Source of the DNA: a virus
IMG/VR virus record: IMGVR_UViG_3300045256_000253
Coordinates: 1-20,176 of that record
Length of the DNA: 20,176 nt
Direction: 5' to 3' (one strand)
The notes beneath the pieces are model-generated. The model saw nothing but the letters and a program-made list of their open reading frames with translations. It did no database searches and was not told where the DNA came from. Positions 6,559-20,176 of this stretch are shown one piece after another. The number at the start of each line of letters is the position of its first letter. The first letter of the stretch is position 1. The translations under genes were made by a program, and so were the position numbers.

Positions 6559-6577
6559 GCGTGTGGCTCCTATGTTG

Positions 6578-6594
6578 CCGGCCGGAAGGGCCGG
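6578..6594. other. GC-rich hairpin between the 111-aa and 217-aa genes
   Basis: CCGGCC, a 5-nt loop, then GGCCGG at 6578-6594. On the minus strand it lies just after the stop of the 111-aa gene and before the ribosome-binding site of the next. No run of T follows, so I do not call a terminator. An mRNA-stabilising or insulating hairpin is possible. Confidence 0.5.
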
Positions 6595-6597
6595 GGG

Positions 6598-6933: not shown

Positions 6934-6943
6934 CGCGCCGCCC

Positions 6944-7519: not shown

Positions 7520-7535
7520 GCTGTCTCCTTTCGGT

Positions 7536-7868
7536 TCAGATGCGGCCCGGGGCCGTGCGCAGCCAGCGCCAGTCCGGGTCGTTGAGCTTGGCCCGGTAGC
7601 GCTTCTGCATCTCCGGGTCGGAATCGAAGATGTCGAGGCCCTCTTCGTTGAGCCACTTGACGATGATGATGTTCGGGATGTGCGCGACGCGCCGCAGCTC
7701 GCGGCTCGGCGACCAGCCGCGATCGTCCTCGTTCTGCAGCCGCTTCGCCGTGTCGAGGTTGGGACGGACGTCCTGCTCGTGCTCGATCAGGAAGGTGCCG
7801 TCCGGCTGGGGGTGGTACCAGACGCGCCCGGCGGGCCCGTGATCGGCGAGCAGGCGCCGGTCAGGCAT
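7536..7868 (-). CDS. Conserved small phage protein with KLNDPDWRWLRT ending (110 aa)
   Basis: The ATG at 7868 (MPDRRLLADHGPAGRVWYHP) overlaps the end of the previous gene by 8 bases. Central and C-terminal blocks are strongly patterned: FLIEHEQDVRPNLDTAKRLQN, SPSRELRRVAHIPNIIIVKWL, EEGLDIFDSD, and RAKLNDPDWRWLRTAPGRI. I know this pattern (R-x-x-RRVA-x-IP, then KWL-x-EEG-x-D, then LNDPD-x-x-LRT) from many podovirus-type genomes, where it sits near the capsid gene and is left as hypothetical. It may be a head-completion protein or a capsid-binding factor. No enzymatic residues stand out. Confidence 0.9.
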   Translation of the reverse strand: MPDRRLLADHGPAGRVWYHPQPDGTFLIEHEQDVRPNLDTAKRLQNEDDRGWSPSRELRRVAHIPNIIIVKWLNEEGLDIFDSDPEMQKRYRAKLNDPDWRWLRTAPGRI

Positions 7869-8100
7869 GCGCCGGCCCCGTCTCGACCGCCGCGGCCGCC
7901 TCGTGCTGCTCGGCAGTCTCGTGCTGCTCGGCGGTCTCGACCAGCTCGACCTGGCCGCGCTCGAGCAGCAGGTCGGCATCGGCCGCGAGCACGTCCCTTT
8001 CCTCGCCCTGGGCGATCGGCCCCTCGCTGTCCCAGGCCTGGGCGATGATCGCGCGCACGCGCACCCGCGCCGGCGCCGCGGCGCAGCTCTTGTCGGCCAT
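7861..8100 (-). CDS. Small acidic head-region protein (79 aa)
   Basis: The ATG at 8100 follows a near-ideal ribosome-binding site, GGAGG with 5 bases spacing. Residues about 13-54 (VRVRAIIAQAWDSEGPIAQGEERDV, then ADADLLLERGQVELVE) fit a small SH3-like or beta-barrel pattern. It is often seen in short phage head proteins, in which a protein of this sort has a late A-x-x-L-x-x-x-G-x-V/A-E-x-V strand. The C-terminus is an acidic tail holding two exact copies of TAEQHE followed by Ala-rich residues, probably a flexible extension. It lies directly after the capsid gene. Confidence 0.82.
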   Translation of the reverse strand: MADKSCAAAPARVRVRAIIAQAWDSEGPIAQGEERDVLAADADLLLERGQVELVETAEQHETAEQHEAAAAVETGPAHA

Positions 8101-8118
8101 GAGCTCCTCCGAATCGAA

Positions 8119-8142
8119 AGGGGCGCCCCGGAGGGCGCCCCT
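8119..8142 (-). terminator. Strong hairpin after the major capsid gene, possible weak terminator
   Basis: AGGGGCGCCC, loop of 4, then GGGCGCCCCT form a perfect 10-bp stem at 8119-8142. On the minus strand it is followed by TTTCGATTC, a poor U-tract, so termination may be partial. A second stem (GCCCGC, 7-nt loop, GCGGGC, about 8148-8166) lies just before it, immediately after the capsid stop codon. A hairpin pair after the capsid gene would lower expression of downstream genes or stabilise the capsid message. Confidence 0.55.
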
Positions 8143-8166
8143 GGACCGCCCGCGGGTCCGGCGGGC

Positions 8167-9126
8167 TTAGGTGAGATCGGCGACGATGCCGTGGCCGGCC
8201 TCGTTGCACATCTCGAGACAGTATTCCTGGATGATCAGCCGCTTCTCGCTGTCGCCCGTCTTGGCCAGCGGGCTGTTCTTCATCGCCCGCAGGCTGGCCA
8301 TCTTCGCCAGCTTCGGGTCGACCAGGATGGCCGAGCGGTTGCGCATGAAGATGTCGATCACCGAGGTCAGCTTGCCGAAATCGCCGACATAGGTGTCGGC
8401 GCCGCCGACGATGGTGACCTGCTTGTCGCGCTCGGCGTCCTGGTTCGTCGTCTTCGTGCTCTGGCCGGCGAAGGTCGAGAAGACGACCTTCTGCGTCGGA
8501 TGCATGAACAGCATCGTCGGCCGCCCGCCGGCGGTATAGGCCGATTGGTGCACGGTCTTCATCAGCGTCTCGGTGAAGGCGCGCTGCGTCCCGTCGGTCG
8601 CCGCCGCCACGATGCCCGAGGAGTAGCCGCCCGAGCTGCCGCCCGAGCCGCGGCTGACATTGCTGGTCAGCCAGGCCTCGATGCCCGCCGACTGGGCCGC
8701 CACCGAGCTGCTGCCGGTGACGCTGGCCTTGTTGCTCAGCATCTGCTTCTCGACGTCGCGCTTCAGCTCGAGGCCCTTCAGCAGGACCTGGTACTCCATC
8801 TCGGAGTCGCGGCCGGCCTTGTTGACCTCCTCGAGCGTGCCGGTGACCACCGCCACCTTGCGGGCGATCTGGGTGCGGTTGCCGACCCGGGTGGTCGGGG
8901 TCGCCGCGTCGCCGGTGGCGTCGTCGCCCTCGATCTGGGCATTGGTGTCGACAGCCGCGGCGAGCGACTGGGTCTGCCATTCATGGTACTTCGCGGTCGC
9001 CTTGCTGCGGCCGATGTTCGAGGTGAAAGGGACGTCGACCGGATCGATCCGGTAGATCAGGTCGGAGAGGTCCTCGCGGATCCCCTTGGCGGTGTAGGCG
9101 TCATAGGTGTTGGTCGGCTGGGCCAT
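8167..9126 (-). CDS. Major capsid protein, SU10-type / DUF5309 family (319 aa)
   Basis: The ATG at 9126 has a good ribosome-binding site (AGGAG, 7 bases). The protein begins MAQPTNTYDAYTAKGIREDLSDLIYRIDPVDVPF, the hallmark opening of the SU10-like major head protein family (HK97 fold). Further family features are the R-x-GNRTQI-x-RK-x-x-V block, the long helix with EMEYQVLLKGLELKRDVEKQMLSN (spine helix), the domain beginning AGGRPTMLFMHPTQK, and the C-terminal strand-helix DIFMRNRSAILVDP...LAKTGDSEKRLIIQEYCLE. Length is usual for the family. It follows the scaffold-like gene and is followed by hairpins. This is a high-confidence call. Confidence 0.95.
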   Translation of the reverse strand: MAQPTNTYDAYTAKGIREDLSDLIYRIDPVDVPFTSNIGRSKATAKYHEWQTQSLAAAVDTNAQIEGDDATGDAATPTTRVGNRTQIARKVAVVTGTLEEVNKAGRDSEMEYQVLLKGLELKRDVEKQMLSNKASVTGSSSVAAQSAGIEAWLTSNVSRGSGGSSGGYSSGIVAAATDGTQRAFTETLMKTVHQSAYTAGGRPTMLFMHPTQKVVFSTFAGQSTKTTNQDAERDKQVTIVGGADTYVGDFGKLTSVIDIFMRNRSAILVDPKLAKMASLRAMKNSPLAKTGDSEKRLIIQEYCLEMCNEAGHGIVADLT

Positions 9127-9151
9127 GGCTTGCTCCTGGAGCCTCTCGCTC

Positions 9152-10156
9152 CTATTGGCGCAGCAGCCCGATCGCGTCGTCGATCGAGCCGGTGCGCTCC
9201 AGGCGTTTCATCTGAGCGGCCCTGTCGCCCGCTGCCCTCTCGCCCCGCGTCGTGCCGGTGCCGGGCTGCTGCACCCGGGCCACCGGCTTCGGCGCCGGCT
9301 TCGCCGCCATCGCCTTGTCGTAGAGCATGGCCTTGCGGGCCATGTTCAGCTCGACCGCCGAGGCCCGCCGGATCCGCTCGTCGGAGGCGCCCGACTGGCG
9401 CAGATAGGCCGTCAGGTCCCGGTCGAGCGACTGCAGCTTTTCCGGGGTGGCGGCGTCGGGGCCGGCGAGCTCGACGAACTTGGCGTTCTCGCTCGCGCGC
9501 CACTGCTCGAGCGCCTGCTGGCTCTCGGCGGCCTCGCGCTGGGCGAGCGCCTGCTGGGTGCCCATCAGGCGGGCGAATTCCGCCTGGTAGGCCTGCAGGC
9601 GCTGGAAGCGATGCGGATCGTCGGCCTGGATCCTGATGGCGTCGGTCTCGCCCTTCACCAGGTCGGCGAACTCCTTCTCGAAGCCCGCGACCAGCGGGTC
9701 GGCGTAGCGCTTGAGGGCGGCGGACAGGTTCTGCCGCTCGGTTCGGGCCGCGGTCAGCTCGGCGTCGACCACCTTCCTGGCCTCGGCATGCTCGTTGTGG
9801 CGCCGCGACTCCTGGGCCCGGAAGTCCCGCTCCCGCTTGGCAATGACCTCTTGCTTCTCGGGAGGAAGGGATTTGAACCAGGCCTGATCGTCCGGCGACC
9901 AGCCGGCGGGCGGGTCGACGGAAGGCCTCGCGGCCGCGTCCTCCCCGGCGCCGGAATCCGTCTCGGCCGCGCCGTCGCCGGCGTGCGCCTCTGCTGGGAT
10001 CTCGAGCTCGGTGCCCTCCTCGGCATCGGCATGCTCGAGATGGGCGTTCTCGTCGCCGGCGCCCTCGCCGGCAGGCGAACGCCGTTCGTCCTCGGCCGGG
10101 GCGCGCAGCGCCGCCGCGGCCTGGGCCAGCGACAGGATGCTGCTGTCCTCGCTCAT
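9152..10156 (-). CDS. Capsid scaffold-like protein (334 aa)
   Basis: The start is the ATG at 10156 (MSEDSSILSLAQAAAALRAP), overlapping the previous stop as ATGA. Longer in-frame readings merely cross the upstream gene. The N-terminal third is acidic and disordered (many E, D, A, G). It is followed by WSPDDQAWFKSLPPEKQEVIAKRERDF, then a long charged helical region suitable for coiled coil (KVVDAELTAARTERQNLSAALK). The C-terminus is basic (MKRLERTGSIDDAIGLLRQ). Placement immediately before the capsid gene, charged helical nature and a basic C-terminal end are what is expected of a scaffold that binds coat subunits. The similar WSPDDQAWF motif is typical of scaffold-like proteins beside SU10/P22-type capsid genes. 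Confidence 0.88.
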   Translation of the reverse strand: MSEDSSILSLAQAAAALRAPAEDERRSPAGEGAGDENAHLEHADAEEGTELEIPAEAHAGDGAAETDSGAGEDAAARPSVDPPAGWSPDDQAWFKSLPPEKQEVIAKRERDFRAQESRRHNEHAEARKVVDAELTAARTERQNLSAALKRYADPLVAGFEKEFADLVKGETDAIRIQADDPHRFQRLQAYQAEFARLMGTQQALAQREAAESQQALEQWRASENAKFVELAGPDAATPEKLQSLDRDLTAYLRQSGASDERIRRASAVELNMARKAMLYDKAMAAKPAPKPVARVQQPGTGTTRGERAAGDRAAQMKRLERTGSIDDAIGLLRQ

Positions 10157-10440
10157 GCCTCGCTCCCTTCTGCGCGCCTCAGGCGCTCGATCTCCTCGAG
10201 CTGCCGCCGCGCGATCTTCCCGCCATTGGCGACCTGGCGCAGCTGCGCCTCGACCCGCCCGAGGATCTGGTCGGCCTGCCACAGCCGCTCGCGCCCGGCG
10301 ACGTCGTCGAGCCGGCTGCCGCGCCACGCCTCGAGGTACTGTCGCCGCAACTCCGCGAAGGCGTGCTCGAGCGAGCCGCGCGCGGCTTCCGCCCGCGCGC
10401 CGGCATCGATGTCCTCGAGGAGCTTCTGCTCGTCGACCAT
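10153..10440 (-). CDS. Small helical head-module protein (95 aa)
   Basis: The ATG at 10440 lies 1 base after the stop of the previous gene. It gives a compact all-helical protein of 95 residues. Its core reads HAFAELRRQYLEAWRGSRLDD, then GRERLWQADQILGRVEAQLRQVANGGKIARRQLEEIERLR. The AF-x-x-LR-x-x-Y-x-x-AW...DD...RE-x-LW...V-x-x-x-L-x-x-V-x-x-GK pattern is common in short proteins beside phage capsid or portal genes, with no defined role. Its end overlaps the scaffold start as ATGA, suggesting coupling to scaffold production. Confidence 0.88.
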   Translation of the reverse strand: MVDEQKLLEDIDAGARAEAARGSLEHAFAELRRQYLEAWRGSRLDDVAGRERLWQADQILGRVEAQLRQVANGGKIARRQLEEIERLRRAEGSEA

Positions 10441-10441
10441 G

Positions 10442-10837
10442 TCAGGCGGCTCCGAACCGGGTTTCCATGAGCCACAGCAGCGTGATCGCGCGGCGCCGCC
10501 CCTCCCGGATGAAGGCTTGGCGCGGGAGCGCCCTGAGAGCTGCCGACCCGAAGCGTCGCACGAACTCGGCCACCGGCATGACGTCGTCGAAGCGGCGGGC
10601 AAGGGCGACACGGCGATGCCATCCCCGCGGATACTCGCCTTCCACGACGCCAGCCGGGTTCAGCCGCCGCAGCCGAGCGGCCACATGCTGTCCGCAGCGC
10701 TGGCGGCGAAGGAACTCCTCGACCGGCCAGACGAGGCGGCCTGGCCGGTCGGCGTAGGCGAGGGCCTCGAGGCCCACCTTCGCGAAGACCGGAGCCAGAC
10801 GCTGCCGCTCCTCGGTGGTCAGCGGTCGCTGCGTCAT
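10442..10837 (-). CDS. Hypothetical basic protein next to portal (131 aa)
   Basis: The ATG at 10837 (MTQRPLTTEERQRLAPVFAKVG) overlaps the portal stop as ATGA. The protein is Arg-rich (about one residue in six) and predicted mostly helical: DRPGRLVWPVEEFLRRQRCGQHVAARLRR, GWHRRVALARRFDDV, and REGRRRAITLLWLMETRFG at the end. I do not recognise a family. The basic charge fits nucleic-acid or scaffold contact, but that is speculation. Its placement between portal and small head genes suggests a virion or assembly role. Confidence 0.75.
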   Translation of the reverse strand: MTQRPLTTEERQRLAPVFAKVGLEALAYADRPGRLVWPVEEFLRRQRCGQHVAARLRRLNPAGVVEGEYPRGWHRRVALARRFDDVMPVAEFVRRFGSAALRALPRQAFIREGRRRAITLLWLMETRFGAA

Positions 10838-13017
10838 GCCGTGCCTCCGTTCGTCATTGGCGAGCCCAGGGGCGCGGCCGGCGCCGGCGCGGCGCCCGCC
10901 GCGGCCAGGGCGCGGATCACCGCCTCCTGAATCGTGCCCTGCAGGTCGAGCCCGGCCTTGATCCGCGCCACCTCGATGTCGGCCGCCGCCTTGATCCGCG
11001 CGATCTCGGCGTCGCTCTCGGCCTTGACGCGCGCGCGCATGGCGGCGACCGCCGGCTCCTGCTCGACCTTCTGGCGGGAGACCTCGGCGTCGAGCTGAGC
11101 GGCGATCACCGTGGCATGCGCCTCCGGCGGGATGCCGCCCGGGCCGCCGGCGCCGGGCTGCGGCTGCGGCGCCGTCGAGGGGTCGCCCCAGAAATCGTCG
11201 GGGTTGCGGAAGCCGGCGTTCTTCGTGATCTCGGTCAGGGTCTTGTGGATCTTCGGCAGCGTGACGATCGGACCGCCCGGCCCGCCCTGGAGCTGCAGCG
11301 CCTGGACCTGCATGCCGAGGATCTGCTGCAAGTGCATCAGCTGCTGGTCCTTGTCGCCGGTGCCGAGCCCGACCGAGACGGTCATGTCGTTGCGCTCGCG
11401 CCAGTCCGAGGGGTCGACCTCGACCCACTGTCCGCGCAGCCGCAGCACGCGGGCCCGCTCCTCCCTTCCATGCACCAGGATCAGCCGGTGCAGCTGCAGG
11501 AACAGGTCCTTGATCCCGGTCTCGGCGAAGATCCGGGCGATCAGCTCGATGCGGTATTGCGCCGCCGTCTGCAGCGCGCGCACCGTCGTCGCCGTCGCCC
11601 GGTCGAGCGATTGCGGGTCGAGCCCGTTGAAGTCGCGCGCCACGCCGGTCCGCCGCTCGCTCGCCTGGTCGACATATTCGAGCAGCGGGAAGATGGTCGG
11701 CCCGATCGGCTGGGTCTGCATCGGGGTGAGGCCGCCCGGCATCCGGGTCCGCACGATGCCGCCCGGCCGGTTGGTCAGCAGGTCGTCGATCGTGTATTCG
11801 CCGGCGTGGCTCTCCGAGACCTCGGTGCGGCCGTTGTTGATGAAGTAGGCGTTGTCGAGCACCGCGCGGTAGAGGGCGGTCTTGATGCGCTGTATGTCGA
11901 TCACCAGGTCGGCGACCGCGAGGCCGATCGCCCGGTGCGGCAGCAGGATCGGGCAGCCCAGGGCGAACGGCATGCCGCCTTCCCACGGCTCGTTGTCGAG
12001 CAGCACGTCGGAGCCGCCCGCCGTCGTCACCTTGCGCAGCTCGGCGATCCCGTCGCCGTCATAGTCGACCCGGACGTAGTGCTCGGTGACGTCGACCAGC
12101 CGCATCGCCGGGTTGGACTCGCCCGAGCCCGTGCCGTCCCCGATCGACTCCGACGCGCCGCCCGTGGTGCGCACGCCCTTGGCCCGCGCCGTGGCCTCCT
12201 CGGTGTCGTCGGTCCAGGTGCTGGTCGGCAGCGCCTCGACCGTCTCGCGGTCATAGCCCTGCTCGAGCAGCTCGGAGACCGTCTTGCGCACCCGGTGGCC
12301 GCAATAGGGCGAATCGGCGACCGAGCGGGCCCGCCGCGCGATCAGGAACTCCTCGGGCGGCACGTTCACCACGCGGGCCCGGCCGACCTTGCGCCGGTGC
12401 ACCAGGGTGAAGTCGTGCAGCATCGGCAGGGCGCCGGCGCCGGGAAAGCCGTCACCGGCCGCCGACAGCGCCTGCAGCCCGGCGACGGCCGGATCGGGAT
12501 ATTCCGTGTGCTCGACCAGCTCGACCCCGTCCTGGCGCGACAGCAGCTCGAGGACGTGCTGCGGCTGGCCGGTGTAGGTCTCGCGCTCGAGGCTGGTGCT
12601 GATCTCCCACCAGCTCTTGACGATCCCGGTCTTCTGCAGCAGCCCGTCCTTGCACATCGTGTAGAGGATCAGGAAGCCCGGGTTGTCCTGCCAGAAGACG
12701 TGGTTGACGTAGTCCGTCTCCTGCGCCGCCGCGTCCTCGTCCTCCGGGCCGACCGGGTTGAAGCGGACGATCTCGTCGCCGGCGGCGAAGATCTTCATCA
12801 GCGCCGGCATGATCGACTCGACGGTGTCGGCGACGTCGCTCGAGACCGCGGCGCTGCGCCCCTGCGCCGACGGCATGTCGGCGGTCATGTCGCCGAGGTA
12901 GTAGTCCATCGCCCGGGCCCGCTGCCGCGACAGGTCGGAGGCGTTGAGCGCCGACAGCGCCTGCGCCTTCTCCGCCGCCACGATCGCTCGCAGCTTGGCC
13001 TCATCCATCACGGGCAT
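10834..13017 (-). CDS. Portal protein, P22 type (727 aa)
   Basis: The ATG at 13017 gives MPVMDEAKLRAIVAAEKAQAL. An ATG three codons later is also possible, and neither has a strong ribosome-binding site. Family features in order: the N-terminal helix with DYYLGDM, the block SAAVSSDVADTVESIMPALMKIFAAGDEIVRF with PVGPEDEDAAAQETDYVNHVFWQDNPGF, DGLLQKTGIVKSWWE, then VPPEEFLIARRARSVADSPYCGHRVRKTVSELLEQGYD. Later come LPHRAIGLAVADLVIDIQRIKTALYRAVLDNAYFINN and DFNGLDPQSLDRATATTVRALQTAAQYRIELIARIFAETGIKDLF. The C-terminal part is a long Ala/Glu/Arg helix (barrel-like). Length matches the P22 family (about 725). It forms the 12-subunit DNA channel at a capsid vertex. Confidence 0.95.
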   Translation of the reverse strand: MPVMDEAKLRAIVAAEKAQALSALNASDLSRQRARAMDYYLGDMTADMPSAQGRSAAVSSDVADTVESIMPALMKIFAAGDEIVRFNPVGPEDEDAAAQETDYVNHVFWQDNPGFLILYTMCKDGLLQKTGIVKSWWEISTSLERETYTGQPQHVLELLSRQDGVELVEHTEYPDPAVAGLQALSAAGDGFPGAGALPMLHDFTLVHRRKVGRARVVNVPPEEFLIARRARSVADSPYCGHRVRKTVSELLEQGYDRETVEALPTSTWTDDTEEATARAKGVRTTGGASESIGDGTGSGESNPAMRLVDVTEHYVRVDYDGDGIAELRKVTTAGGSDVLLDNEPWEGGMPFALGCPILLPHRAIGLAVADLVIDIQRIKTALYRAVLDNAYFINNGRTEVSESHAGEYTIDDLLTNRPGGIVRTRMPGGLTPMQTQPIGPTIFPLLEYVDQASERRTGVARDFNGLDPQSLDRATATTVRALQTAAQYRIELIARIFAETGIKDLFLQLHRLILVHGREERARVLRLRGQWVEVDPSDWRERNDMTVSVGLGTGDKDQQLMHLQQILGMQVQALQLQGGPGGPIVTLPKIHKTLTEITKNAGFRNPDDFWGDPSTAPQPQPGAGGPGGIPPEAHATVIAAQLDAEVSRQKVEQEPAVAAMRARVKAESDAEIARIKAAADIEVARIKAGLDLQGTIQEAVIRALAAAGAAPAPAAPLGSPMTNGGTA

Positions 13018-13123
13018 GTCGGGTTCCGGACCCCTGAAACGACGGCGCCCGCCGCGGTCGGTGACCGGGCGGGCGCAGTGATCGAATCCTGGCGAAGACG
13101 CATAGCAAATTTGTTCAGGATGT
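13018..13123 (-). promoter_or_regulatory. Leader of the portal gene with hairpin
   Basis: This 106-bp gap is locally AT-richer than its surroundings at 13099-13127. It holds a stable imperfect hairpin at 13045-13076. The outer arms are GCGCCCGCC and GGCGGGCGC, and the inner arms are GGTC and GACC with a 3-base loop. A single CTGAAACG octamer (13034-13041) lies between the hairpin and the portal start. It is the same octamer that is clustered upstream of the small terminase gene. A leader structure controlling portal expression is plausible but unproven. Confidence 0.5.
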
Positions 13124-13127
13124 TCAA
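13099..13127 (-). promoter_or_regulatory. Candidate sigma-70-like promoter before portal
   Basis: Reading the minus strand, TTGAAC, a 17-base spacer and TATGCG resemble -35 and -10 boxes. The -35 matches 4 of 6 consensus bases and the -10 matches 3 of 6. It overlaps the stop of the HTH gene and precedes the hairpin leader of the portal gene. It is weak evidence, supported mainly by the correct spacing and local AT-richness. Confidence 0.3.
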
Positions 13128-13549
13128 CCGGCCTCTCCCATCGCCTCGGCGAGCCGGTCGAGCGCCGCGTTCAGCCGGGCCCAGCCGGTGGTCCGGCCGA
13201 TGCGGAATCGGCGGCAGATCTCCGCCCAGTCGGCGCCGAGCATCCAGGCCCCGACCAGGCGCCGCGCGTCCAGGTCGAGCACCAGGATCCAGGCGAGCAC
13301 CTGGTCGAGCCGGTCGAGCTGCTCGCCGGTGGGCTCGGGCGGCCGGCGCCGCGCCGCGGCGGCGGCATAGGCCGTCCAAAAGTCCTGGGGGACGTGCGGC
13401 CAGGTCGCCTGCAGCCGATCGAGCCGATCGAGCTCGCGCGGGTACGGCATGGCGTGCAGCGTCAACGCAGCGTCATGCAGCCGTGATTTCACCGCGTCCC
13501 GCCGCTGGCGCGTCTCGACGTCGATCGTCGCCATGCCGCCGTCCATCAT
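13124..13549 (-). CDS. DUF6362-like helix-turn-helix protein (141 aa)
   Basis: The ATG at 13549 overlaps the stop of the previous gene as ATGA. A second ATG follows at once. The N-terminus is MMDGGMATIDVETRQRRDAV. The C-terminal half carries the diagnostic pattern LDLDARRLVGAWMLGADWAEICRRFRIGRTTGWARLNAALDRLA (about residues 91-134), a helix-turn-helix in which GADWAEIC-x-x-FRIGRTTGWARLN is the recognition segment. I know this layout from DUF6362-like phage proteins in alphaproteobacteria. Its role is unknown. Lying between large terminase and portal, it might regulate late genes or bind packaging DNA. The HTH call is good, the function is not. Confidence 0.85.
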   Translation of the reverse strand: MMDGGMATIDVETRQRRDAVKSRLHDAALTLHAMPYPRELDRLDRLQATWPHVPQDFWTAYAAAAARRRPPEPTGEQLDRLDQVLAWILVLDLDARRLVGAWMLGADWAEICRRFRIGRTTGWARLNAALDRLAEAMGEAG

Positions 13550-13902
13550 CGCCGCCTGCTTCGCTGCCGGCGCCGGCGCTCGGCGAAGCGTCCGTCGGCC
13601 TGCTCGGCGCCGGAGGGACGCTGGCCGACCATGTTGCGGCCGATCGACACCTTGGCGTCGTTCGGCAGGAAGGTGATGATCGCCCGCGTCGCCGGGTCCC
13701 AGACGGCAACCATCGTCACCTCGGCGTGGCGCACCAGGTGCACCTCGCTGCGATCCGCCTGGACCCGGAGCCTGACGGTGCGACCGTTCCCGCACTGCGC
13801 CCCGAGCAATGCCAGCTCGTGCGGCGTCAGCGCCACACCATAGCGCTCCCAGGCCCGCTCGATCGCGTGGCTCCCGACATGCGTGGCATAGGGCGTGCTC
13901 AT
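13546..13902 (-). CDS. Small protein with HAIER...RYG motif, possible RelE/DUF4258-like fold (118 aa)
   Basis: The ATG at 13902 overlaps the terminase stop as TGATG. The N-terminus has SHAIERAWERYGVALTPHELALL (residues about 11-33). Two beta strand stretches follow (RLRVQADRSEVHLVRHAEVTMVAVWDPATRAIITFLP), and the protein ends in a very basic tail (ERRRRQRSRRR). A H-A-x-E/R-R-x-x-E-R-Y-G opening followed by a beta sheet is the pattern seen in small RelE-like or DUF4258-type proteins, some of which are RNases. Catalytic residues cannot be assigned, so nuclease activity is speculative. It might instead be an assembly or DNA-binding factor for packaging, given the neighbouring terminase. Confidence 0.75.
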   Translation of the reverse strand: MSTPYATHVGSHAIERAWERYGVALTPHELALLGAQCGNGRTVRLRVQADRSEVHLVRHAEVTMVAVWDPATRAIITFLPNDAKVSIGRNMVGQRPSGAEQADGRFAERRRRQRSRRR

Positions 13903-15350
13903 CAGGCGACCCCGAGCGCGGGATATTCGAGCTTCCGGCCGAATCGCCCTTCCTTCTGGCCGAGCAGCCGCCGGTGCTCGCCGCCGCCGAGCAGCGCGTA
14001 CTGCAGCCCGTCATGCGGGTGCGAGAAGTCGTTCTTCGCCGGCAGCTCCTCGAAGCGGCTCTGCCCGGCGAGCTGCAGCCGGCGGAAGGCATAGCCGCTG
14101 TTGAAGCCCTTGCGCAGCACCTTGCAGCTCGGCGACAGCAGCAGCCCCGGCTTGTGGCCGTCGATCATCCGGGTCAGCGGCACCCGCACCGCGTCGAGCC
14201 GGACGCTGATCGCGTTCGTCATGGTCGGCGCGATCGCCAGCTTCGTCGTGGCGGCGATCACCTCGGCCCAGCTCCGCTCGTCGGTGCTCGAGCGCGACAT
14301 CGAGGCCGGGTCGGCCCAGGCGGTCGCCTTCAGCTTGGCGTACTTCTCGGCGAGCAGCTGCAGCAGCAGCTCGCCGAAGCGGGTCGCCCCCATGTTGGCG
14401 CCGACCAGCTCGTCGAGGATGCGCCACTGCCCGTCCGGCGCGCGCTGCGTGACGATCGCCGCCGGCGAGAGCCCGGCATCGAGCCCGAGGGTGAGTGCCA
14501 CGCCCGGCAGCGGCTCGAGCGGCTTCGGCGCCACGTGGAACGCGTCGTTGAACTCGGGATAGACCGGCAACCCGTCGCGGCTGTAGCCGAACAGGTTGTC
14601 AACGAAGCGGCGGACATACCAGTCGGGCTGGCCCTGGACCTGCTGCTCGTAGTAGCCGTCCGGCAGGTTGCGCAGGTTCTCCGCCCCCGCATCCCGGCCG
14701 CCCGGCTGGCGGAACCACTCCCAACCCTTCGCCGGCGCCTCGACGAAATCGTGGTAGATCCAGGAATCGGTGTCGGGCGCGTTGCAGTCGAGCACCACGC
14801 CGTACCAGCTCGCCCCGCCGCCGCCGGCACCGTCCTTGGCGGGATAGCGGCCGACGCGGCCGCGCACGAAGGTGAGCACGTCCTTGGCCAGCAGGTCGGC
14901 CTCATTCAGGTACGCCCAGGTGCCTTCCCAGCCCCGCATCGCGTCCTCGACCTTGTGCTCGCCGAGACCGAGGAACTCCATCACCAGGTCGACCATCGTG
15001 CCGTCGGGCAGCCCGAACCGCAGCCGGTGCACCGCCGGCCGGCCGCCCTCGCCGCCGATCCAGTCGCCGGTTTCCTTCGGCACCCAGCGGTGCCAGGACG
15101 GGATGGTGGTCTTCTCGAGCTGCCGGTAGGTGTCGCGGATCACGGCGCCCTTGAACCGGCGAACGCCGTTCGCATCGGGCGCCTGCCGCGCCGCGCGGAA
15201 GACGCCGTCCATCAGGCAGGCGCCGGTCTTGCCCGAGCCGATCGGCCCGTTGATGCAGCGGACCGACGCGTCCGACGCCATGAAGCGCGCCGCTACCGGG
15301 CCCGGCGGCTGGTAGCGGATCGCGAGGCCGCTCACGCCCGCACCCCGCAT
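13902..15350 (-). CDS. terL: Terminase large subunit (482 aa)
   Basis: The start is ambiguous: ATG at 15350 or GTG at 15335, which would read MSGLAIRYQ and fit the short N-terminus usual in this family. Numbering here uses 15350. Walker A is GPIGSGKT at 35-42. The Walker B / catalytic Glu region is TWAYLNEAD at about 144-152. A nuclease (RNase H fold) begins LTLGLDAG at 287-293, giving Asp291. ADP at 346-348 gives a second Asp, and HDGLQYAL near 446-453 gives the third acidic residue. The motor cuts and pumps DNA into the head, powered by ATP. All key residues are present, so it looks functional. It lies downstream of the small terminase, after a 280-bp gap. Confidence 0.95.
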   Translation of the reverse strand: MRGAGVSGLAIRYQPPGPVAARFMASDASVRCINGPIGSGKTGACLMDGVFRAARQAPDANGVRRFKGAVIRDTYRQLEKTTIPSWHRWVPKETGDWIGGEGGRPAVHRLRFGLPDGTMVDLVMEFLGLGEHKVEDAMRGWEGTWAYLNEADLLAKDVLTFVRGRVGRYPAKDGAGGGGASWYGVVLDCNAPDTDSWIYHDFVEAPAKGWEWFRQPGGRDAGAENLRNLPDGYYEQQVQGQPDWYVRRFVDNLFGYSRDGLPVYPEFNDAFHVAPKPLEPLPGVALTLGLDAGLSPAAIVTQRAPDGQWRILDELVGANMGATRFGELLLQLLAEKYAKLKATAWADPASMSRSSTDERSWAEVIAATTKLAIAPTMTNAISVRLDAVRVPLTRMIDGHKPGLLLSPSCKVLRKGFNSGYAFRRLQLAGQSRFEELPAKNDFSHPHDGLQYALLGGGEHRRLLGQKEGRFGRKLEYPALGVA

Positions 15351-15625
15351 CCCGCACCCCGGGCGATGCCGACCCTTTCCGCGCGGGTCCAATTCCGGCC
15401 AACGAGGTCCTGGGAGTTTTTCGAGCCCCCACGGTCGCTCGCTCGGGCCGCGGGGGGTCCCCCCCGGGTCGCGCCGGCGGCGGCCTCGGCCGCCGCCGGG
15501 TCGAGGTGCCCGCCGGCCTGCCCGTCTGATGACCGATCAGCGGGCAGGAGCCACGGAAATGGCGGAGTTCCGCGGGTTTCGCGCGGCTGTCCAACTCGCC
15601 GCTGTCCAACTCGGCTCGACCGCAT
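15332..15625 (-). CDS. Doubtful ORF in the terS-terL gap (97 aa)
   Basis: An ATG at 15625 lies 4 bases after the small-terminase stop, with AGAGGG 8 bases upstream. The ORF ends with a TGA that overlaps the alternative GTG start of the large terminase as GTGA. That junction pattern repeats elsewhere in this operon and argues for reality. Against it, the predicted protein (MRSSRVGQRRVGQPRETRGT...) is Arg/Gly/Ala-rich without a recognisable fold. Third codon positions are much less GC-rich than in neighbours, and the DNA is full of inverted repeats. It may be a non-coding structured region or a degenerating gene. Confidence 0.3.
   Translation of the reverse strand: MRSSRVGQRRVGQPRETRGTPPFPWLLPADRSSDGQAGGHLDPAAAEAAAGATRGGPPAARASDRGGSKNSQDLVGRNWTRAERVGIARGAGCGVRA
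15474..15499. other. Perfect 12-bp inverted repeat in the terS-terL gap
   Basis: CCGGCGGCGGCC, 2 bases, then GGCCGCCGCCGG. As RNA it would form a 10-bp stem with a larger loop. Extreme GC content makes chance more likely than usual, but perfect symmetry over 24 bases is notable. Confidence 0.6.
15517..15548. other. Bulged 13-bp hairpin in the terS-terL gap
   Basis: CCTGCCCG at 15517-15524 pairs with CGGGCAGG at 15541-15548. Inside, CTGAT at 15526-15530 pairs with ATCAG at 15536-15540, closing a 5-nt loop (GACCG). The only unpaired stem base is the T at 15525. The stem is not followed by a T-run on the minus strand, so it is not a standard terminator. It may be an RNA control element or a packaging-protein site. 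Confidence 0.75.
15586..15613. repeat. Tandem 13-bp direct repeat, period 15
   Basis: GCTGTCCAACTCG occurs exactly at 15586-15598 and 15601-15613, separated by 2 bases. It lies just downstream (minus sense) of the small-terminase stop codon, in the same gap as the hairpins. Direct repeats near terS are compatible with a packaging-protein site, but the function is unknown. Confidence 0.8.
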
Positions 15626-15629
15626 CGCG

Positions 15630-16142
15630 CTAACCCTCTGATTTTGCTGGATTCAGGTCGAGGGCGAGCTCGCCCTCGATCGCGGCCGGTCCGGCCGCGC
15701 CGGCGAGCGCCGCCGGGTCGACGATCGCCAGCATCGCGACGCCCTTGCCCTCGACCTGGACGGCCTGCGGCAGCTTCTGGTGGACGTAGGGCGCCAGCTC
15801 CTGCATCGCGCGCAGCTGCAGCTGGAAGGCCTCGAGCCGAGTGCAGGAGAGCAGGCGCGCCAGCTCCTCGACCGGCCGGCTGTACGTCTCCGCCATCGCC
15901 ACCAGCGGCGAGCGGTAGCGGCCGAGGATGTGCTCGACCCAGGCCTGCGTGCGCCGGTTCGGCGTCCCCGGCGCCCGCCCGCCCCGCCGCGGGCTGTCCG
16001 GCGTCTCGTGCTCGCGCGCCGGCTCGGCGACCGCCGCCAGCGGCAGGCCGGCAAGCTCGAGCTGCGCGGGCTCGGCCGGCGCCTCGCCGGCCGCCCGGGC
16101 CGCCGCCTGGACGGCGCCGGCGATCCCCGTCGCCTCGGCCAC
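15630..16142 (-). CDS. Putative terminase small subunit (170 aa)
   Basis: The start is the GTG at 16142, directly after the TAG of a 22-codon leader ORF. A purine-rich GGGGGCGAG precedes it. The N-terminal 45 residues are low-complexity Ala/Glu/Pro. Residues 53-64 (RGGRAPGTPNRR) resemble a basic, AT-hook-like DNA-contact loop. A helical block follows: AWVEHILGRYRSPLVAMAETYSRPVEELARLL, then TRLEAFQLQLRAMQELAPYVHQKLPQAV. It ends with a beta segment (GKGVAMLAIVD). The R-G-R-x-x-G-x-x-NRRT...YRSPL...EAF-x-LQL-x-A...ELAPYVHQK pattern is one I know from proteins immediately upstream of large terminases. It likely recognises the packaging site and stimulates TerL. It might also be an unrelated DNA-binding protein. 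Confidence 0.75.
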   Translation of the reverse strand: MAEATGIAGAVQAAARAAGEAPAEPAQLELAGLPLAAVAEPAREHETPDSPRRGGRAPGTPNRRTQAWVEHILGRYRSPLVAMAETYSRPVEELARLLSCTRLEAFQLQLRAMQELAPYVHQKLPQAVQVEGKGVAMLAIVDPAALAGAAGPAAIEGELALDLNPAKSEG

Positions 16143-16211
16143 CTACTCGCCCCCTACTTCAGGCGTTTCAGCCCGTTTCAGCCAGCGTTTCAGGCCAAGC
16201 CCTTGATCCAT
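16143..16211 (-). CDS. Possible 22-codon leader ORF abutting the small terminase
   Basis: The ATG at 16211 has an upstream AGAGG (about 9 bases). It reads MDQGLGLKRWLKRAETPE and ends GGE. Its TAG is immediately followed by the GTG of the small terminase in the same frame. Three copies of the CTGAAACG octamer lie within it and supply the LKR, LKR and AETPE codons. The exact abutment (TAG then GTG) suggests translational coupling. It may be a leader peptide or only an accident of repeat DNA. Confidence 0.35.
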   Translation of the reverse strand: MDQGLGLKRWLKRAETPEVGGE

Positions 16212-16264
16212 CTCTCTATTCCTCTGTCTGAAACGGTGAAACGGTTGAAACGGTGATGTTCATG

Positions 16265-16283
16265 ACGCGCGCGCGCATATACG
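16265..16283. other. Alternating purine-pyrimidine tract within the octamer array
   Basis: The tract at 16265-16283 (ACGCGC repeats running into ATATACG) alternates purine and pyrimidine over 19 bases. Such tracts can adopt Z-DNA, and the ATAT step is easily melted. It sits between octamer clusters, where an opening site might lie. Confidence 0.55.
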
Positions 16284-16310
16284 GGAGGCCGTTCTAGGCG
16301 TTTCAGCGTT

Positions 16311-16490
16311 TCAGGGTGGTATTGTCGTTGTCCACCAACGACTTAGCTGAAACGGCGGGCGTTTCAGCGCCGTTTCGGGCGTTTCATCTGCGAACCTCTC
16401 GCAGTCCCCGAACCCGCCACCGCAGGTTGCATCGCGCTCGCCCGCCGCGCGATTGACCGACATCCCAAAGGGTCGGGGATCAGGGCGCAT
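16311..16490 (-). CDS. Doubtful small ORF downstream of the helicase (59 aa)
   Basis: The ATG at 16490 overlaps the helicase stop by 11 bases and has GGAGG 8 bases upstream. The predicted protein (MRPDPRPFGMSVNRAAGERD...) has no recognisable fold. Its C-terminal half, from about ETPETALKRPPFQL onward, is encoded by the octamer repeats and the 16324-16342 hairpin. Third-base composition is unlike the real genes here. It may be a real small gene overlapping regulatory DNA, but chance is likely. Confidence 0.28.
   Translation of the reverse strand: MRPDPRPFGMSVNRAAGERDATCGGGFGDCERFADETPETALKRPPFQLSRWWTTTIPP
16324..16342. other. 7-bp-arm hairpin inside the octamer array
   Basis: GTCGTTG, 5-base loop TCCAC, then CAACGAC. 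It lies 4 bases before the dyad made by two octamers. No T-run follows on the minus strand. It may be an operator or structural element of a replication or packaging site. Confidence 0.65.
16346..16368. promoter_or_regulatory. Perfect dyad of two octamers (9-bp arms), operator-like
   Basis: GCTGAAACG, 5-base spacer GCGGG, then CGTTTCAGC. It is the only place in the array where opposite-sense octamers face each other closely. Two half-sites about 14 bp apart centre to centre would suit a dimeric helix-turn-helix or ribbon protein. Confidence 0.6.
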
Positions 16491-18276
16491 GATCGCCCCC
16501 CTCCTCCGACAGCAGCACCGCCTCGAGCGGCAGCAGCGTGCATCGCGCGTAGGCGCCGTTGAACCTGAGCCCGCCATGCGAGCGCGCGCCAGGCACCCGG
16601 CGCAGCGCCTGCGCCCAGACGCCGGCGGCGCCGCTGCGCGCGGCCCAATGGGTGCCGGCGAACAGGGCGGCGAGGCCCTGGTGGCAGTTGGCGACCGCCA
16701 GCCAGCGCTGGCCCTCGGCGTCGCGATGGATGCGCAGGCCGAAGGTGCCGATGACCTCGACGGCCTCGACCTGGCTGCCCGGCTCGAGGCCGCGCGCGTC
16801 GCCGGCGGCGCGCAGCAGCCATTGGTTGAGCACCAGGCGCGCGCCGCCGCGGTAGACGTCGACCACCGAGGTGACCAGGTGGGCAACGCAGCGCTGGTGG
16901 TCGGCGTCGTCGGGAGTGTCCGCGCTGGCGCTCGCCACCCCGGCCGCCCAGGCCTCGAGCTCGTCGCCGCTCGGCAGCTGGTCGTGCAGCAGCAGGTCGG
17001 CGGCGGCGCCGAGAGTGCCCAGCTGGTCGGCGCCGCGGCCGCCCTGCCCCGCCGCCGCGCAGGCCTGCCGGTAGGCCTCGAGAGTGGCGTCCCAGCGGTG
17101 CCAGCCATCGACCAGGCGGCGGCGCAGCGCGGCGCCCAGCGCCGCCAGCTTGCGGCGGTCGAGCGCCGGCGGCCCGCGGAAGACCTCGCCCTCGGCGACC
17201 AGCGGCTCGAGCTCGAGGATGGCGATCCGGCTGCGGTCCTGCCCGAGCATTGGCGGGATCAGGATCGAGGAGAACAGAAAGCACGATCGCGCGGTGAACT
17301 CGGCGCCCTTGTGGTCGGCGCCGCCCCGCAGCACCACGCCGCCGCTCGCCGCCTGGCGCGCCAGCTTGACGATCTGGTAGGCGCGCCGGTTGTCCTCGTC
17401 GGCCTCGAGCTCGTCGATCGCGACCGGCAGCGCGGCATGCCCGAGCTTCTGCCAGATGCCGGCGCCCGACGCGTCCGACACCGAGACGATCGCGTCGTCG
17501 AAGACCCACTGCAGCAGCCGGTGCAGCGTGCTCTTGCCGGTCGCCCGATCGCCGGTGATCCAGGCCATCGGGCGCCACTGCAGCGCGCCGCCGAGCATGG
17601 CCGCGGCGATCCAGCCGAGCAGCAGCTGCGCGTCGACCGCGCCGCGGCGCCAGCGCCAGGTGTTGAGCAGCGCCAGCAGCTCGTGCGCGGGGCCGCGCTC
17701 GCCACCCGCCGCCCGGGTCGGGGCGAAGCGCGGGCGCGCCGGCGCCGCCGGATAGACCTGCGCATCGATAGGGCCCGGCTGGCGCCAGCCGCCGGCGTCG
17801 GCACCGCCCGGCCCGACCCACACCTGGTCGCCGCAATGCAGGATCAAATTCCCGGCCGCGCCGAGCCAGCAGCCGACGCCGCGCACTCGCTCCATCGGGT
17901 TCCAGACGCCGCGGCGCGCGGCCTCCGTCATCAGCGCCTCGGCCGCCTTCTCCGGCCGCCAGCCGGTGGTCTCGCCCTCGGCGTTGACCCGCGGCCAGTC
18001 GCGATACAGCAGCTCGATCCGGGTCCCGAACAGTGCCTGCACCCCGAGCCGACTATGCTCGCGCGCCGGCAGCGCCCGCAGCTGGCGCGAATCGTCGAGG
18101 TAATAGGCAACGTCGTCGAGGATCCCGAGCGGCTCGACCGGGCAGTCCTCGGGCAGCTGGGACCGCCGCTCGCGCGACGGCCCGGCCGGCCCGCCCGGGT
18201 CGGGGATCGAAGTGACCTCGACGGCGCCGTCGAGCGCCGCCCGCACGCCTTCGACGTTGCCGTCCGGTACCGTCAA
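16480..18276 (-). CDS. Phage replicative ATPase, primase-helicase type (598 aa)
   Basis: The start is a TTG at 18276, overlapping the ParB-like stop as TTGA and preceded by GGGGGA about 7 bases away. No ATG gives a sensible N-terminus. Residues 80-155 hold a conserved block (LFGTRIELLYRDWP, GWRPEKAAEALMTEAARRGVWNP, RGVGCWLGAAGNLILHCGDQV). The ATPase core follows: TGDRATGKST at 241-250 (Walker A) and LPVAIDELEAD at 283-293 (Walker B with Asp-Glu). A later stretch reads ARSCFLFSSILIPPML (sensor-like). This resembles the ATPase half of phage primase-helicases of the DUF927 / superfamily 3 type, without a primase catalytic core. With the Toprim primase upstream it would form a two-gene replisome. 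The family assignment is moderate. Confidence 0.85.
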   Translation of the reverse strand: MTVPDGNVEGVRAALDGAVEVTSIPDPGGPAGPSRERRSQLPEDCPVEPLGILDDVAYYLDDSRQLRALPAREHSRLGVQALFGTRIELLYRDWPRVNAEGETTGWRPEKAAEALMTEAARRGVWNPMERVRGVGCWLGAAGNLILHCGDQVWVGPGGADAGGWRQPGPIDAQVYPAAPARPRFAPTRAAGGERGPAHELLALLNTWRWRRGAVDAQLLLGWIAAAMLGGALQWRPMAWITGDRATGKSTLHRLLQWVFDDAIVSVSDASGAGIWQKLGHAALPVAIDELEADEDNRRAYQIVKLARQAASGGVVLRGGADHKGAEFTARSCFLFSSILIPPMLGQDRSRIAILELEPLVAEGEVFRGPPALDRRKLAALGAALRRRLVDGWHRWDATLEAYRQACAAAGQGGRGADQLGTLGAAADLLLHDQLPSGDELEAWAAGVASASADTPDDADHQRCVAHLVTSVVDVYRGGARLVLNQWLLRAAGDARGLEPGSQVEAVEVIGTFGLRIHRDAEGQRWLAVANCHQGLAALFAGTHWAARSGAAGVWAQALRRVPGARSHGGLRFNGAYARCTLLPLEAVLLSEEGGDHAP

Positions 18277-19211
18277 CGCTGTTCCCCCTGCCCTTTGCGG
18301 TAGGCGCGCGTGAACAGCTCGGCGAAGGCCTCGACGGTGCTGCCGCCAACCTCGCGCTTGCGCTCGCGCGCCTTGTGCAGCCAGTCCTGTGCCTTCTGCC
18401 GCCCGAGCACGCCGCGGAACGTGGCCTCGTCGAAGCCGCCGGGCGGGCACCAGTCGCGCCGCGACAGCAGCCAGGCGACGCCGGCGACGATCTCGGCCCG
18501 CAGCTGGTCGCGGGTCGGCCCGGCCGCCTCGCGCACCAGGCGCAGCGCATCGGCGGCGATCCGCTCGCCGTAGCGCGCAATGCAGAAGCGGATCTTCTGG
18601 ACCGCGAGGGTCTGGCCGGGCGGCAGCCCCTCCGGTCGGCCGGTGCTCGCGATGGTGACGCCGGCCAGGCCGCAGACGCGCTCGATCTGCACCGCGTCGG
18701 CGTCGCCGGCGACCACCGCCGCGCGGTGCAGCTGGGTCGGCAGCATGGCGCGCCGGTCGCGATTGAGCGCGATGAAGGACGCGGCCTGCAGCTCGACGCT
18801 GGCAGCGTCGATGATGTAGCAGGGCAGCCGCTCGAAGCCGCAGCGCCGGGCCGCCTCGAGCCGGTGCTGCCCGTCGATCACCGCGTGCACCGGCCGGCCT
18901 TCCCCGGGCGTGCCCTCGTCGACCGCCTCGCGGGACATCTCGGCCACCGTCAGCGGCTGGAACAGCGCCCACCGCCAGCTCGCGGCGATGCGCCGGACAA
19001 GCGCCTGGCTGGCCCGGCCGGAGATGTCGCGCTGGTAGCGATCGTCGATCGTGAGGCCGGCGACCGGCAGCCACTCGATGCGCGGCGGCGGCCCGGGATC
19101 GATCGCCGTCTTCGGCCGCACCGAAGGCGCGGCAAGCACGCGGGCGGCTTCCGGCGCCTCGGCGAGCCGCGGCACCGGCGCTGACAGCAGGTTGGTGCGC
19201 CGCGCTAGCAT
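18273..19211 (-). CDS. ParB/Srx-like protein (312 aa)
   Basis: The ATG at 19211 has no good ribosome-binding site and overlaps the preceding mini-ORF by 7 bases. The ParB-like N-terminal domain is at about residues 44-160. It has IEWLPVAGLTIDDRYQRD, then FQPLTVAEMSREAV, the signature AVIDGQHRLEAARRCG (IDGQHR at 112-117), FERLPCYIIDA, and SFIALNRDRRAMLP. These are the features of ParB/sulfiredoxin-fold proteins that bind nucleotide (CTP in true ParB). The C-terminal part is helical. In phages such proteins sit in replication or regulation blocks and may bind DNA or act as nucleases. No companion ParA is visible. The neighbours are the Toprim primase and the ATPase, suggesting a replication role. 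Confidence 0.88.
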   Translation of the reverse strand: MLARRTNLLSAPVPRLAEAPEAARVLAAPSVRPKTAIDPGPPPRIEWLPVAGLTIDDRYQRDISGRASQALVRRIAASWRWALFQPLTVAEMSREAVDEGTPGEGRPVHAVIDGQHRLEAARRCGFERLPCYIIDAASVELQAASFIALNRDRRAMLPTQLHRAAVVAGDADAVQIERVCGLAGVTIASTGRPEGLPPGQTLAVQKIRFCIARYGERIAADALRLVREAAGPTRDQLRAEIVAGVAWLLSRRDWCPPGGFDEATFRGVLGRQKAQDWLHKARERKREVGGSTVEAFAELFTRAYRKGQGEQR

Positions 19212-19255
19212 GGCTCGAGGCCGAGATCGCAGTGGTTGTTACAGGCGTTGCACAT
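19205..19255 (-). CDS. 16-codon cysteine-rich mini-ORF between primase and ParB-like genes
   Basis: The ATG at 19255 directly follows the primase TAG, and a GGGGG lies 8 bases upstream. It reads MCNACNNHCDLGLEPC, with four Cys and one His spaced like a metal-binding knuckle (C-x2-C-x3-C-x6-C). The ORF then overlaps the ParB-like ATG. It fills the whole gap between two genes in an otherwise tightly packed operon, which makes a translational coupler or a metal-binding micropeptide credible. Length alone cannot exclude chance. Confidence 0.4.
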   Translation of the reverse strand: MCNACNNHCDLGLEPC

Positions 19256-20176
19256 CTAGGCTGCCCCCGCGCCGCGGCCGCGGCATAGGAGTTCATTCAT
19301 GTCCTTCGCGCCCTTCGTCCAGGCGAGCTGCACGCGGCGCCGCTCGCCGAGGAAGCGCGCGATCGCGCGGTCGAGCGCCTTCGCGGTCGCGGCGTTGGCG
19401 CCGTCCTGCTGCGCGCAGAGGATTACTGGCGAGAGCTGCGGCGGCAGCTCGAGCGCCGCCATGTTGGCGAGCGCGACGGCGACCAGCACCCGCAGATCGG
19501 GCCGCGCCACCGCGACGCTGAGCCCGTCCTCGATCCCCTCGGTGATCGCCACCGCCTCGGCCGGCGCGTCGGCGAGCTGCTTGCCCGAGGCGCCGCGCCA
19601 GAGCCGGATGCAGCCGCCCTTGTAGGAGCCGAGCGTCATCTTCGGGTCGGCGAGCGGTGCCTTGCGCACCGTGAGGTCGGGCCGCGCCTCGAGCCAGGTC
19701 CGGTGCACGGCGACGGTGTTGCCCTTGGCGTCGACGACGCCGGCGAGCATCGCCGGCCAGGCGCGCCGGCTCTCGCCGTTCCATAGCGACGGGTGGTAGC
19801 GCAGCGACCGCGGCTGCCGGCCGAGCCCCGCGAGCTCGATGCCGCGCCCGGCGAGGTAGCGGTCGACCGGCGTGCCGGCGAGCTTCTCCTGGGCGGCCAG
19901 CCAGAGCCGGAAGGCGCCGTCGCGCCGATCGCCGCCGTCGGCCGGCGCCGGCGGCGCCTCGGCCTGGCGCCGGCGCGCCGCGAGGCTGCGCTCGAGCGCA
20001 GCCGCATCGTTCCCGTCGAGCCCGAGCCAGGACCGCGCCCACTTGATCGCCTCGGCCTTGTCGGCGCGGCACATCGCCTGCGCCACCAGGTCGAGCGCGT
20101 CGCCGCACTCGCCCGAGGCGAAGTCGGCCCAGATGCCGGCGCGGGGGGCGGCCCCGATGTCGGGGGGCGGAACGCC
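19256..20176 (-). CDS. Toprim-domain DNA primase, 5' end outside window
   Basis: The frame is open to the right edge (307 codons including the stop) with no start inside. A GTG at 20086 is unlikely to be the true start because conserved sequence (GIWADFASGECGDALDLV) runs upstream of it. Family blocks are AGIWADFASGECGDALDL, EKLAGTPVDRYLAGRGIEL, SLRYHPSLWNG, and AMLAGVVDAKGNTVAVHRTWLE. The Toprim core follows as AVAITEGIEDGLSVAVA and LANMAALELP. The usual D-x-D motif reads QQD (19403-19411), with the first Asp replaced. The region ends WTKGAKDMNELL. A zinc-binding N-terminus is likely beyond the edge. It makes RNA primers for replication and pairs with the ATPase two genes downstream. Confidence 0.9.
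   Translation of the reverse strand, partial: GVPPPDIGAAPRAGIWADFASGECGDALDLVAQAMCRADKAEAIKWARSWLGLDGNDAAALERSLAARRRQAEAPPAPADGGDRRDGAFRLWLAAQEKLAGTPVDRYLAGRGIELAGLGRQPRSLRYHPSLWNGESRRAWPAMLAGVVDAKGNTVAVHRTWLEARPDLTVRKAPLADPKMTLGSYKGGCIRLWRGASGKQLADAPAEAVAITEGIEDGLSVAVARPDLRVLVAVALANMAALELPPQLSPVILCAQQDGANAATAKALDRAIARFLGERRRVQLAWTKGAKDMNELLCRGRGAGAA

Follow-up and report, generated by a model that had tools for sequence, protein, structure and literature searches.

In the virus record analysed here, a dense cluster of short words lies between the replication genes and the terminase genes, raising the question of which phage protein reads these words and in which process. The original prediction offered a replication origin bound by the ParB-like protein or by the ATPase, a pac site bound by the small terminase, or an operator array for late genes. 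Our analysis favours the replication origin, with the ATPase (a primase-helicase, hereafter PriHel) as the likely binder, and favours neither the ParB-like protein as binder nor a pac site; the pac, ParB and operator readings are all weaker than that of an origin. It is very likely, we infer, that the array is the replication origin of the phage and is recognised by PriHel.

The array and the genes around it

The window, by which we mean the whole stretch of DNA analysed, is a virus record of 20,176 bases. A near-identical longer contig (IMGVR_UViG_3300045107_000831, 39,293 b; hereafter G001) matches it at 100% in DNA over window positions 3000-20000, with 99% identity for TerS and 100% for PriHel. 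As originally located, the array lies between the stop of the primase-helicase gene (16480) and the start of terS (16142), in the following surroundings:

15630-16142, minus strand: small terminase (TerS) of the GRPxGxxNK type, 22 bp from the array, with a homologue in MT835930
16480-18276, minus strand: PriHel, primase-helicase and proposed initiator binding the array; PHROG 21086 (E 7.4e-79) and PHROG 35358 'DNA primase' (E 1.5e-44); predicted fold like Cch, SaPI5 primase-helicase and MCM
18273-19211, minus strand: ParB-like protein, not generally accompanying the array
19256-20176, minus strand: DUF7146/Toprim primase, upstream in the replication block, running off the window

No Pfam match was found for PriHel, whose start codon may be TTG at 18276 or GTG at 18246, and neither a Pfam nor a PHROG match for the TerS of the window. 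SU10-type portal and major capsid protein genes are also encoded in the window. The phage is probably temperate, because rough gene calling on the longer contig revealed an apparent integrase and a CI-like repressor, both recognised by eye.

The array itself consists, just as first described, of 12 copies of CGTTTCAG in both orientations, eight exact and four with one mismatch, within 224 bp (16164-16387). They form the following blocks:

16164-16193, plus strand: outer block beside terS, three CGTTTCAG (16164, 16174, 16186), spacing 10 and 12
16194-16227, no strand: A/T-richer gap from outer to inner block, 44 bp site to site, A+T 0.50 versus 0.27 in G001; candidate unwinding region
16228-16252, minus strand: inner block, three sites (16228 exact; 16236 and 16245 one mismatch), spacing 8 and 9
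16253-16298, no strand: centre, with a 19-base alternating purine-pyrimidine run at 16265-16283 (by eye)
16299-16314, plus strand: inner block of the other side, two exact sites (16299, 16307), spacing 8
16315-16346, no strand: second A/T-richer gap, 42 bp site to site, A+T 0.50
16347-16354, minus strand: outer site, exact
16360-16387, plus strand: outermost block, three sites (16360 exact; 16371 and 16380 one mismatch), spacing 11 and 9

Both strands of the window together hold 21 matches to CGTTTCAG with at most one mismatch, against 9.4 expected (100 shuffles, largest 16). Position 13034 is indeed the sole exact octamer in the window outside the array; the claim that 9204 is the only one-mismatch variant there fails, eight such variants lying outside the array. 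The octamer is not equally dense elsewhere and is concentrated in the gap, which in G001 holds 11 of 14 copies of CGTTTCA and eight of nine copies of CGTTTCAG. The spacing is not irregular, as had been stated: neighbouring sites of a block lie 8-12 bp apart, and one block is separated from the next by 42, 52 or 44 bp. Classical plasmid iterons are direct repeats of ~17-22 bp in one orientation, and the view that the array is unlike them is right in one respect, its words being short (7-8 bp) and in both orientations.

Arrays beside PriHel genes in related phages

Relatives were collected by PriHel and TerS alignment scans, giving 22 and 14 loci on viral contigs, and 10 loci came from genomes (Sphingomonas, Albimonas and other alphaproteobacteria). 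Scanning for k-mer clusters, with no motif presupposed, detected a dense array, mostly in both orientations, between the PriHel and terminase genes at nearly all PriHel loci. After removal of six duplicates (L164, L165, L170, L173, L174 and L180), and with L158 and L136 left out as the same contig as G001, a downstream array was present in 35 of 36 PriHel loci, among which near-identical pairs such as L147/L154 remain; at the one locus where none was seen (L144), the contig ends ~1.6 kb after PriHel. The array was the best 6-mer cluster of the whole locus in 35/35, with scores of 9.5-24.4 in 34 of them versus a maximum of 6.8 in 105 Markov copies, the other being a weak array (score 6.6) in the fragment L160. 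The strongest non-array cluster in the same loci scored 9.5 (L006), equalling the array of L181. Arrays are ~200-370 bp long and occur once per locus, with no second cluster above 9.5 in the stretches examined; they lie 95 bp from PriHel in G001, at most 300 bp away in 20 of 35 loci and up to 4.3 kb away in others. Listings from our searches of the open-access (PMC) literature contained no description of such an array.

The heptamer varies by lineage. Fifteen words, oriented by hand from array geometry, were found: CGTTTCA (the window), CGTTGCA, CGTGGCA, CGTAGCA, GGTTTCA, GGTAACA, GGTAACG, TGGAACA, TGGAACC, CAGAACC, CGCAACC, CGGGACA, GGTATGG, TGTTAGG and TGTTACT. In related phages the array and its broad layout are thus kept, but the word itself is not.

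In the plan that the loci broadly share, outer sites spaced at typically 11-12 bp are followed by a gap that mostly measures 39-56 bp (range 27 to 59). Next come inner sites, oppositely oriented and spaced at 8-9 bp, then a centre of 52-96 bp, and beyond it the mirror image. At the 20 loci with <65% PriHel identity used for tests of geometry, signed site positions gave a mean pairwise score of 6.62, versus 4.62 with spacing shuffled and 4.61 with orientation shuffled (20 rounds each), and the mean dyad self-score, against the reverse complement, was 9.1 versus 5.7 in 100 shuffled rounds. The dyad is a property of the family: single loci scored 6 (G001), 4 (L145) and 10 or 12 (ten loci), the score of G001 itself being hardly above the shuffled mean. 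When loci were compared with G001 alone, three of 19 (L137, L145 and L176) beat both shuffles at no more than 12/300. The two gaps have a mean A+T of 0.53 (20 loci) and 0.65 (19 loci) versus 0.34 for the loci, and in 20/20 loci no more than 3.3% of 300 random segments equalled the alternating purine-pyrimidine run of the centre.

Dense CGTTTCA arrays also occur in phages without a PriHel hit (L131:1106-1365, L091:4933-5045 and L076:4796-4930). In L131 the array follows a DUF5906 helicase and is followed by a protein that is Nu1-like by eye, and L091 carries Toprim, an AAA_25 helicase and the array, with terminase-like genes, by eye, further on. We count the position of the L131 and L091 arrays beside unrelated helicases against a PriHel origin; because both were found by word search, they tell us that the arrangement also exists with other helicases, but nothing about its frequency. 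The CGTTTCA cluster search yielded at least 120 stretches, many of these clusters being in long open frames. Judged from translation by eye, clusters of CGTTTCA/TGAAACG at L041:5442, L022:5529, L032:349, L109:8838, L066:2255 and comparable positions may fall within the 3' portion of replisome-organiser-like genes; they are possibly origins within genes, as the lambda origin lies inside gene O. A further cluster, in BcepC6B (25,220-25,488, score 10.4), lies beside an integrase gene.

Which gene the array follows

The motif changes together with PriHel, and the geometry is broadly kept. In partial Mantel tests, which tend to be over-optimistic, motif distance correlated with PriHel distance given TerS (0.60), TerL (0.63) or Toprim (0.52), with 0/1000 permutations each. 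Given PriHel, the correlation was 0.014 for TerS (371/1000 permutations) and 0.063 for TerL (181/1000). These tests used 26 loci, leaving out L160 (fragment), L146, L150, L155, L172 and L176 (no TerS hit), L153 and L167 (no Toprim) and L007 (no TerL).

That the motif does not track TerS given PriHel bears directly on the proposal that the array is a pac or cosB-like site, recognised by the small terminase and marking the start of packaging. Proximity speaks for this proposal, the array ending 22 bp from terS in the window and at most ~100 bp from the terS frame in 15 of the 30 loci with a TerS call; in 14 of the 30, however, array and terS are 500-860 bp apart (terS frames taken from the first start codon). 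In lambda, too, the gap that precedes the small-terminase gene nu1 holds CGTTTCC three times, both orientations being represented (L135:50-165); we take these words to be the R sites of cosB, which are terminase sites. Only three words were seen in that gap by eye, and the likeness is probably a coincidence of word. The HTH protein after the L131 array resembles Nu1 by eye (Phage_Nu1 E 0.053, below the cut-off), and in the Atlantibacter plasmid L189 a terS-related gene follows the array.

Against these points, the array does not travel with the small terminase. None of the four loci that combine a homologous TerS with another helicase, D5_N/DUF5906 in L159, L163 and L168 and Prim-Pol/AAA_25 in L161, has such an array before TerS (L169 was not counted as lacking PriHel, as its record begins ~300 bp before the TerS frame), and BcepC6B, whose TerL is 41% identical, has no comparable cluster in 300 + 480 bases upstream of terS. 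Other repeats were seen by eye upstream of TerS at these four loci. In L159 (~2700-2944), L163 and L168 these are longer inverted repeats that flank an alternating CG/TG centre, apparently another origin type; in L161 (~5510-5929) they are several TCCGGTGT-like direct repeats beside the Prim-Pol/AAA_25 gene. Two clusters above the Markov null of the other loci, one in L163 after TerS (6142-6363, score 10.6-10.7) and one in L168 in one orientation (5-143, score 14.7), were not counted as arrays, being tandem-like repeats by eye.

PriHel matches comprised 23 phage and 14 plasmid records, of which L006, L007, five further phages and seven plasmids were examined. These five phages and seven plasmids are more distant relatives in the helicase core. 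By score and by eye, seven of the 12 had clear arrays (L183, with the array 1.7 kb downstream; L185, with the array upstream of its helicase; L186, L189, L190, L191 and L192), four had weak or mixed ones (L184, L187, L188 and L193) and in one (L182) none was seen. In four Arsenophonus plasmids, 7.9-11.6 kb in size, a PriHel-like gene is followed directly on its 3' side by a mirrored array, the mirror being complete in L190 (-12-12-12-44+8+87-8-59+12+12+12, word GGTAACA) and L191 (GGTTGTA) and approximate in L192 (CTAACAA) and L186 (ATTACAA). An annotated terminase small subunit lies 3.3-4.2 kb from the array in L190 and L192, and none is among the five features of L186 or the 7/9 features shown for L191, the plasmid gene table being incomplete. 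Because the motif does not follow TerS once PriHel is allowed for, four TerS loci with another helicase lack the array and the Arsenophonus arrays lie beside the helicase, we do not favour a packaging site and regard it as decidedly unlikely.

The same plasmids weigh against an operator through which a phage regulator would time the late genes, with the terS promoter within the array. The position of the array between the replication genes and terS-terL would suit such an operator; a mirrored array directly 3' of a helicase gene in small plasmids, another that precedes the helicase gene in Acinetobacter phage Acjo_20 and a motif that follows PriHel would not, making this reading very improbable. 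A partition site bound by the neighbouring ParB-like protein is suggested by the position of its gene between those of Toprim and PriHel in the window. Among the loci listed, however, a ParB homologue occurs only in G001, L006 and L181, in the latter two away from PriHel, and because the array is nearly universal we do not favour binding by the ParB-like protein and consider a partition site extremely improbable.

An origin might also be recognised by Toprim or another phage protein instead of PriHel. Toprim distance retains a partial correlation with the motif given PriHel (0.24, 1/1000 permutations), and L091 combines Toprim, another helicase and a CGTTTCA array. PriHel given Toprim is nevertheless stronger (0.516, 0/1000), L159, L163 and L168 have Toprim but neither PriHel nor such an array, and, according to PMC7581432, SaPI Rep and Cch2 themselves bind origin DNA. 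We judge recognition by a protein other than PriHel unlikely.

PriHel as candidate initiator and the plan of the proposed origin

The AlphaFold2 model of PriHel (pLDDT 85.6) resembles SCCmec Cch (5dgk; Z 15.6, rmsd 5.3, 340 residues) and the SaPI5 primase-helicase (7ola; Z 15.2, rmsd 5.2, 310 residues). A helicase initiator like Cch or SaPI Rep, as in SaPI/PICI elements, is therefore matched at the level of the predicted model, with MCM helicase chains scoring equally (Z up to 16.1). The Foldseek ranking is headed by poxvirus E5/D5, African swine fever virus PrimPol and NrS-1, with SaPI5 in 28th place, and in sequence PriHel gave matches at the level of the P-loop only. The C-terminal domain (model pLDDT 88.4) has a winged-helix-like order by eye; its best structural match, TcpK with oriT DNA (5vfx), is weak at Z 4.8, and Foldseek gave no match for it at E<=0.001.

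Motif correlation was spread along PriHel, the N-terminal and AAA parts (0.66 for residues 1-200, 0.65 for 201-440) doing slightly better than the C-terminal ones (0.50 for 441-540, 0.61 for 541-610); residues 541-610 given 201-440 keep 0.23 and residues 201-440 given 541-610 keep 0.38 (0/1000 each). An attempt to place specificity in the C-terminal domain by column covariation failed. With motifs from 31 of the 35 loci (not L006, L154, L160 or L179), or 27 after dropping those at >=85% PriHel identity, residues 541-600 were not enriched (6/59 top PriHel tests versus 360/2994 overall), the mean score of TerL columns (0.119) exceeded that of PriHel columns (0.100), and the top columns, which probably reflect ancestry, were spread over PriHel, TerL, Toprim and TerS. 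The best column within 541-600 was residue 583 (adjusted MI 0.71), which is Lys in 10/10 loci with C at motif position 7, Arg in 13/16 with A or G, and Tyr in one with T; this link is confounded with ancestry and suggestive only.

Known replication systems offer several likenesses. The C-terminal domain of SaPI Rep recognises iterons of an origin directly downstream of the rep gene (PMC7581432), and PICI origins are described as an A/T-rich region with one set of iterons on each side (PMC6092414). The helicase fold of these elements and of SCCmec Cch/Cch2 is that predicted for PriHel (5dgk, 7ola), and multiple short iterons likewise lie 3' of the initiator gene beside A/T-rich DNA here, 95 bp away in G001. 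Set apart by description, the present array has several mirrored blocks, two A/T-richer gaps and an alternating purine-pyrimidine centre. PICI satellites by definition lack capsid and portal genes of their own, whereas the array here belongs to a phage that encodes both.

The likeness to P4 is one of geometry. According to the annotation of NC_001609, its type 1 octamers occur in both orientations, with signed spacing -10 -11 -22 +43 -10 - at ori and +9 +43 -18 -14 + at crr, the latter directly 3' of the alpha gene. Over the 20 loci, the fit to P4 ori averaged 4.15 versus 3.40 shuffled (largest shuffled mean 3.7, 60 rounds), with at least 5/6 sites matched in six loci (0.8 expected) and all six in one, L138 (-11-11-23+41-9-). 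The fit to crr, which resembles the other half, averaged 3.85 versus 3.14 (largest 3.4, 60 rounds), with 17 of 20 loci matching 4/5 sites (4.4 expected) and none all five. G001 matched 4/6 sites of ori and 4/5 of crr, and the four Arsenophonus arrays, at 3/6 and 2-3/5, did no better than shuffles. P4 differs in its word, TGTTCACC versus CGTTTCA, in its alpha protein, annotated as a 777-residue DNA primase where the Toprim primase is here a separate gene, and in having two separate cis elements, ori and crr lying ~4.7 kb apart in the record, where each of our loci has one array that would hold both halves. The array looks like an ori-like half joined to a crr-like half, a reading of geometry and not of demonstrated descent.

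In the PLE satellites of Vibrio, too, relatives that differ in their origin also differ in the part of the initiator that binds DNA, according to PMC8263062, much as word and PriHel change together here. The PLE initiator is RepA_N, which PMC7145576 describes as not predicted to be a helicase, and PLE iterons are ~30 bp and semi-palindromic.

From these likenesses we propose how a PriHel-dependent origin could work. The twelve CGTTTCA-type words would serve as iterons bound by the C-terminal domain of PriHel, which may act as an MCM-like, self-loading initiator helicase encoded beside the array. Two PriHel assemblies pointing in opposite directions could sit on the inverted blocks at either side of the purine-pyrimidine centre; melting of the A/T-richer gaps, each of which separates an outer from an inner block, would let rings load, and the Toprim protein would prime. 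Besides the arrays adjoining unrelated helicases, points against this proposal are the weak fold match of the C-terminal domain and the plasmid matches without it, the Arsenophonus helicases matching PriHel only up to ~370-377 (24-27% identity) with the C-terminal domain outside the match. Along G001, GC skew has no turning point at the array.

A broader reading, which we hold tentatively and regard as possible rather than probable, is that phages, satellites and small plasmids share one plan for loading MCM-like initiator helicases. Its outer sites would lie about one helical turn apart, followed by a melting gap of 40-45 bp and inner sites at 8-9 bp, with the mirror image beyond a Z-prone centre, so that two rings could load head to head. 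The plan would be conserved and the word free, and P4 ori and crr would be this dyad cut into two half-origins joined by alpha. Against this reading, the plasmid arrays fit P4 spacing no better than shuffles and the dyad of G001 is not strong by itself.

If this reading is true, the free word would prevent elements residing in one cell from using or titrating one another's origins. A freely changing word on a fixed scaffold also fits selection against cross-talk: lambda replication is blocked by extra copies of its origin at ectopic positions (PMC4488673), and PLE iterons are the target of a nuclease directed at the origin (PMC8263062). The geometry of the arrays would also suggest a reason for the two cis elements of P4, and the family would offer many natural initiator-iteron pairs for reading a recognition code. 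A related plan in capsid-encoding phages and in plasmids of 7.9-11.6 kb would widen the class of such origins.
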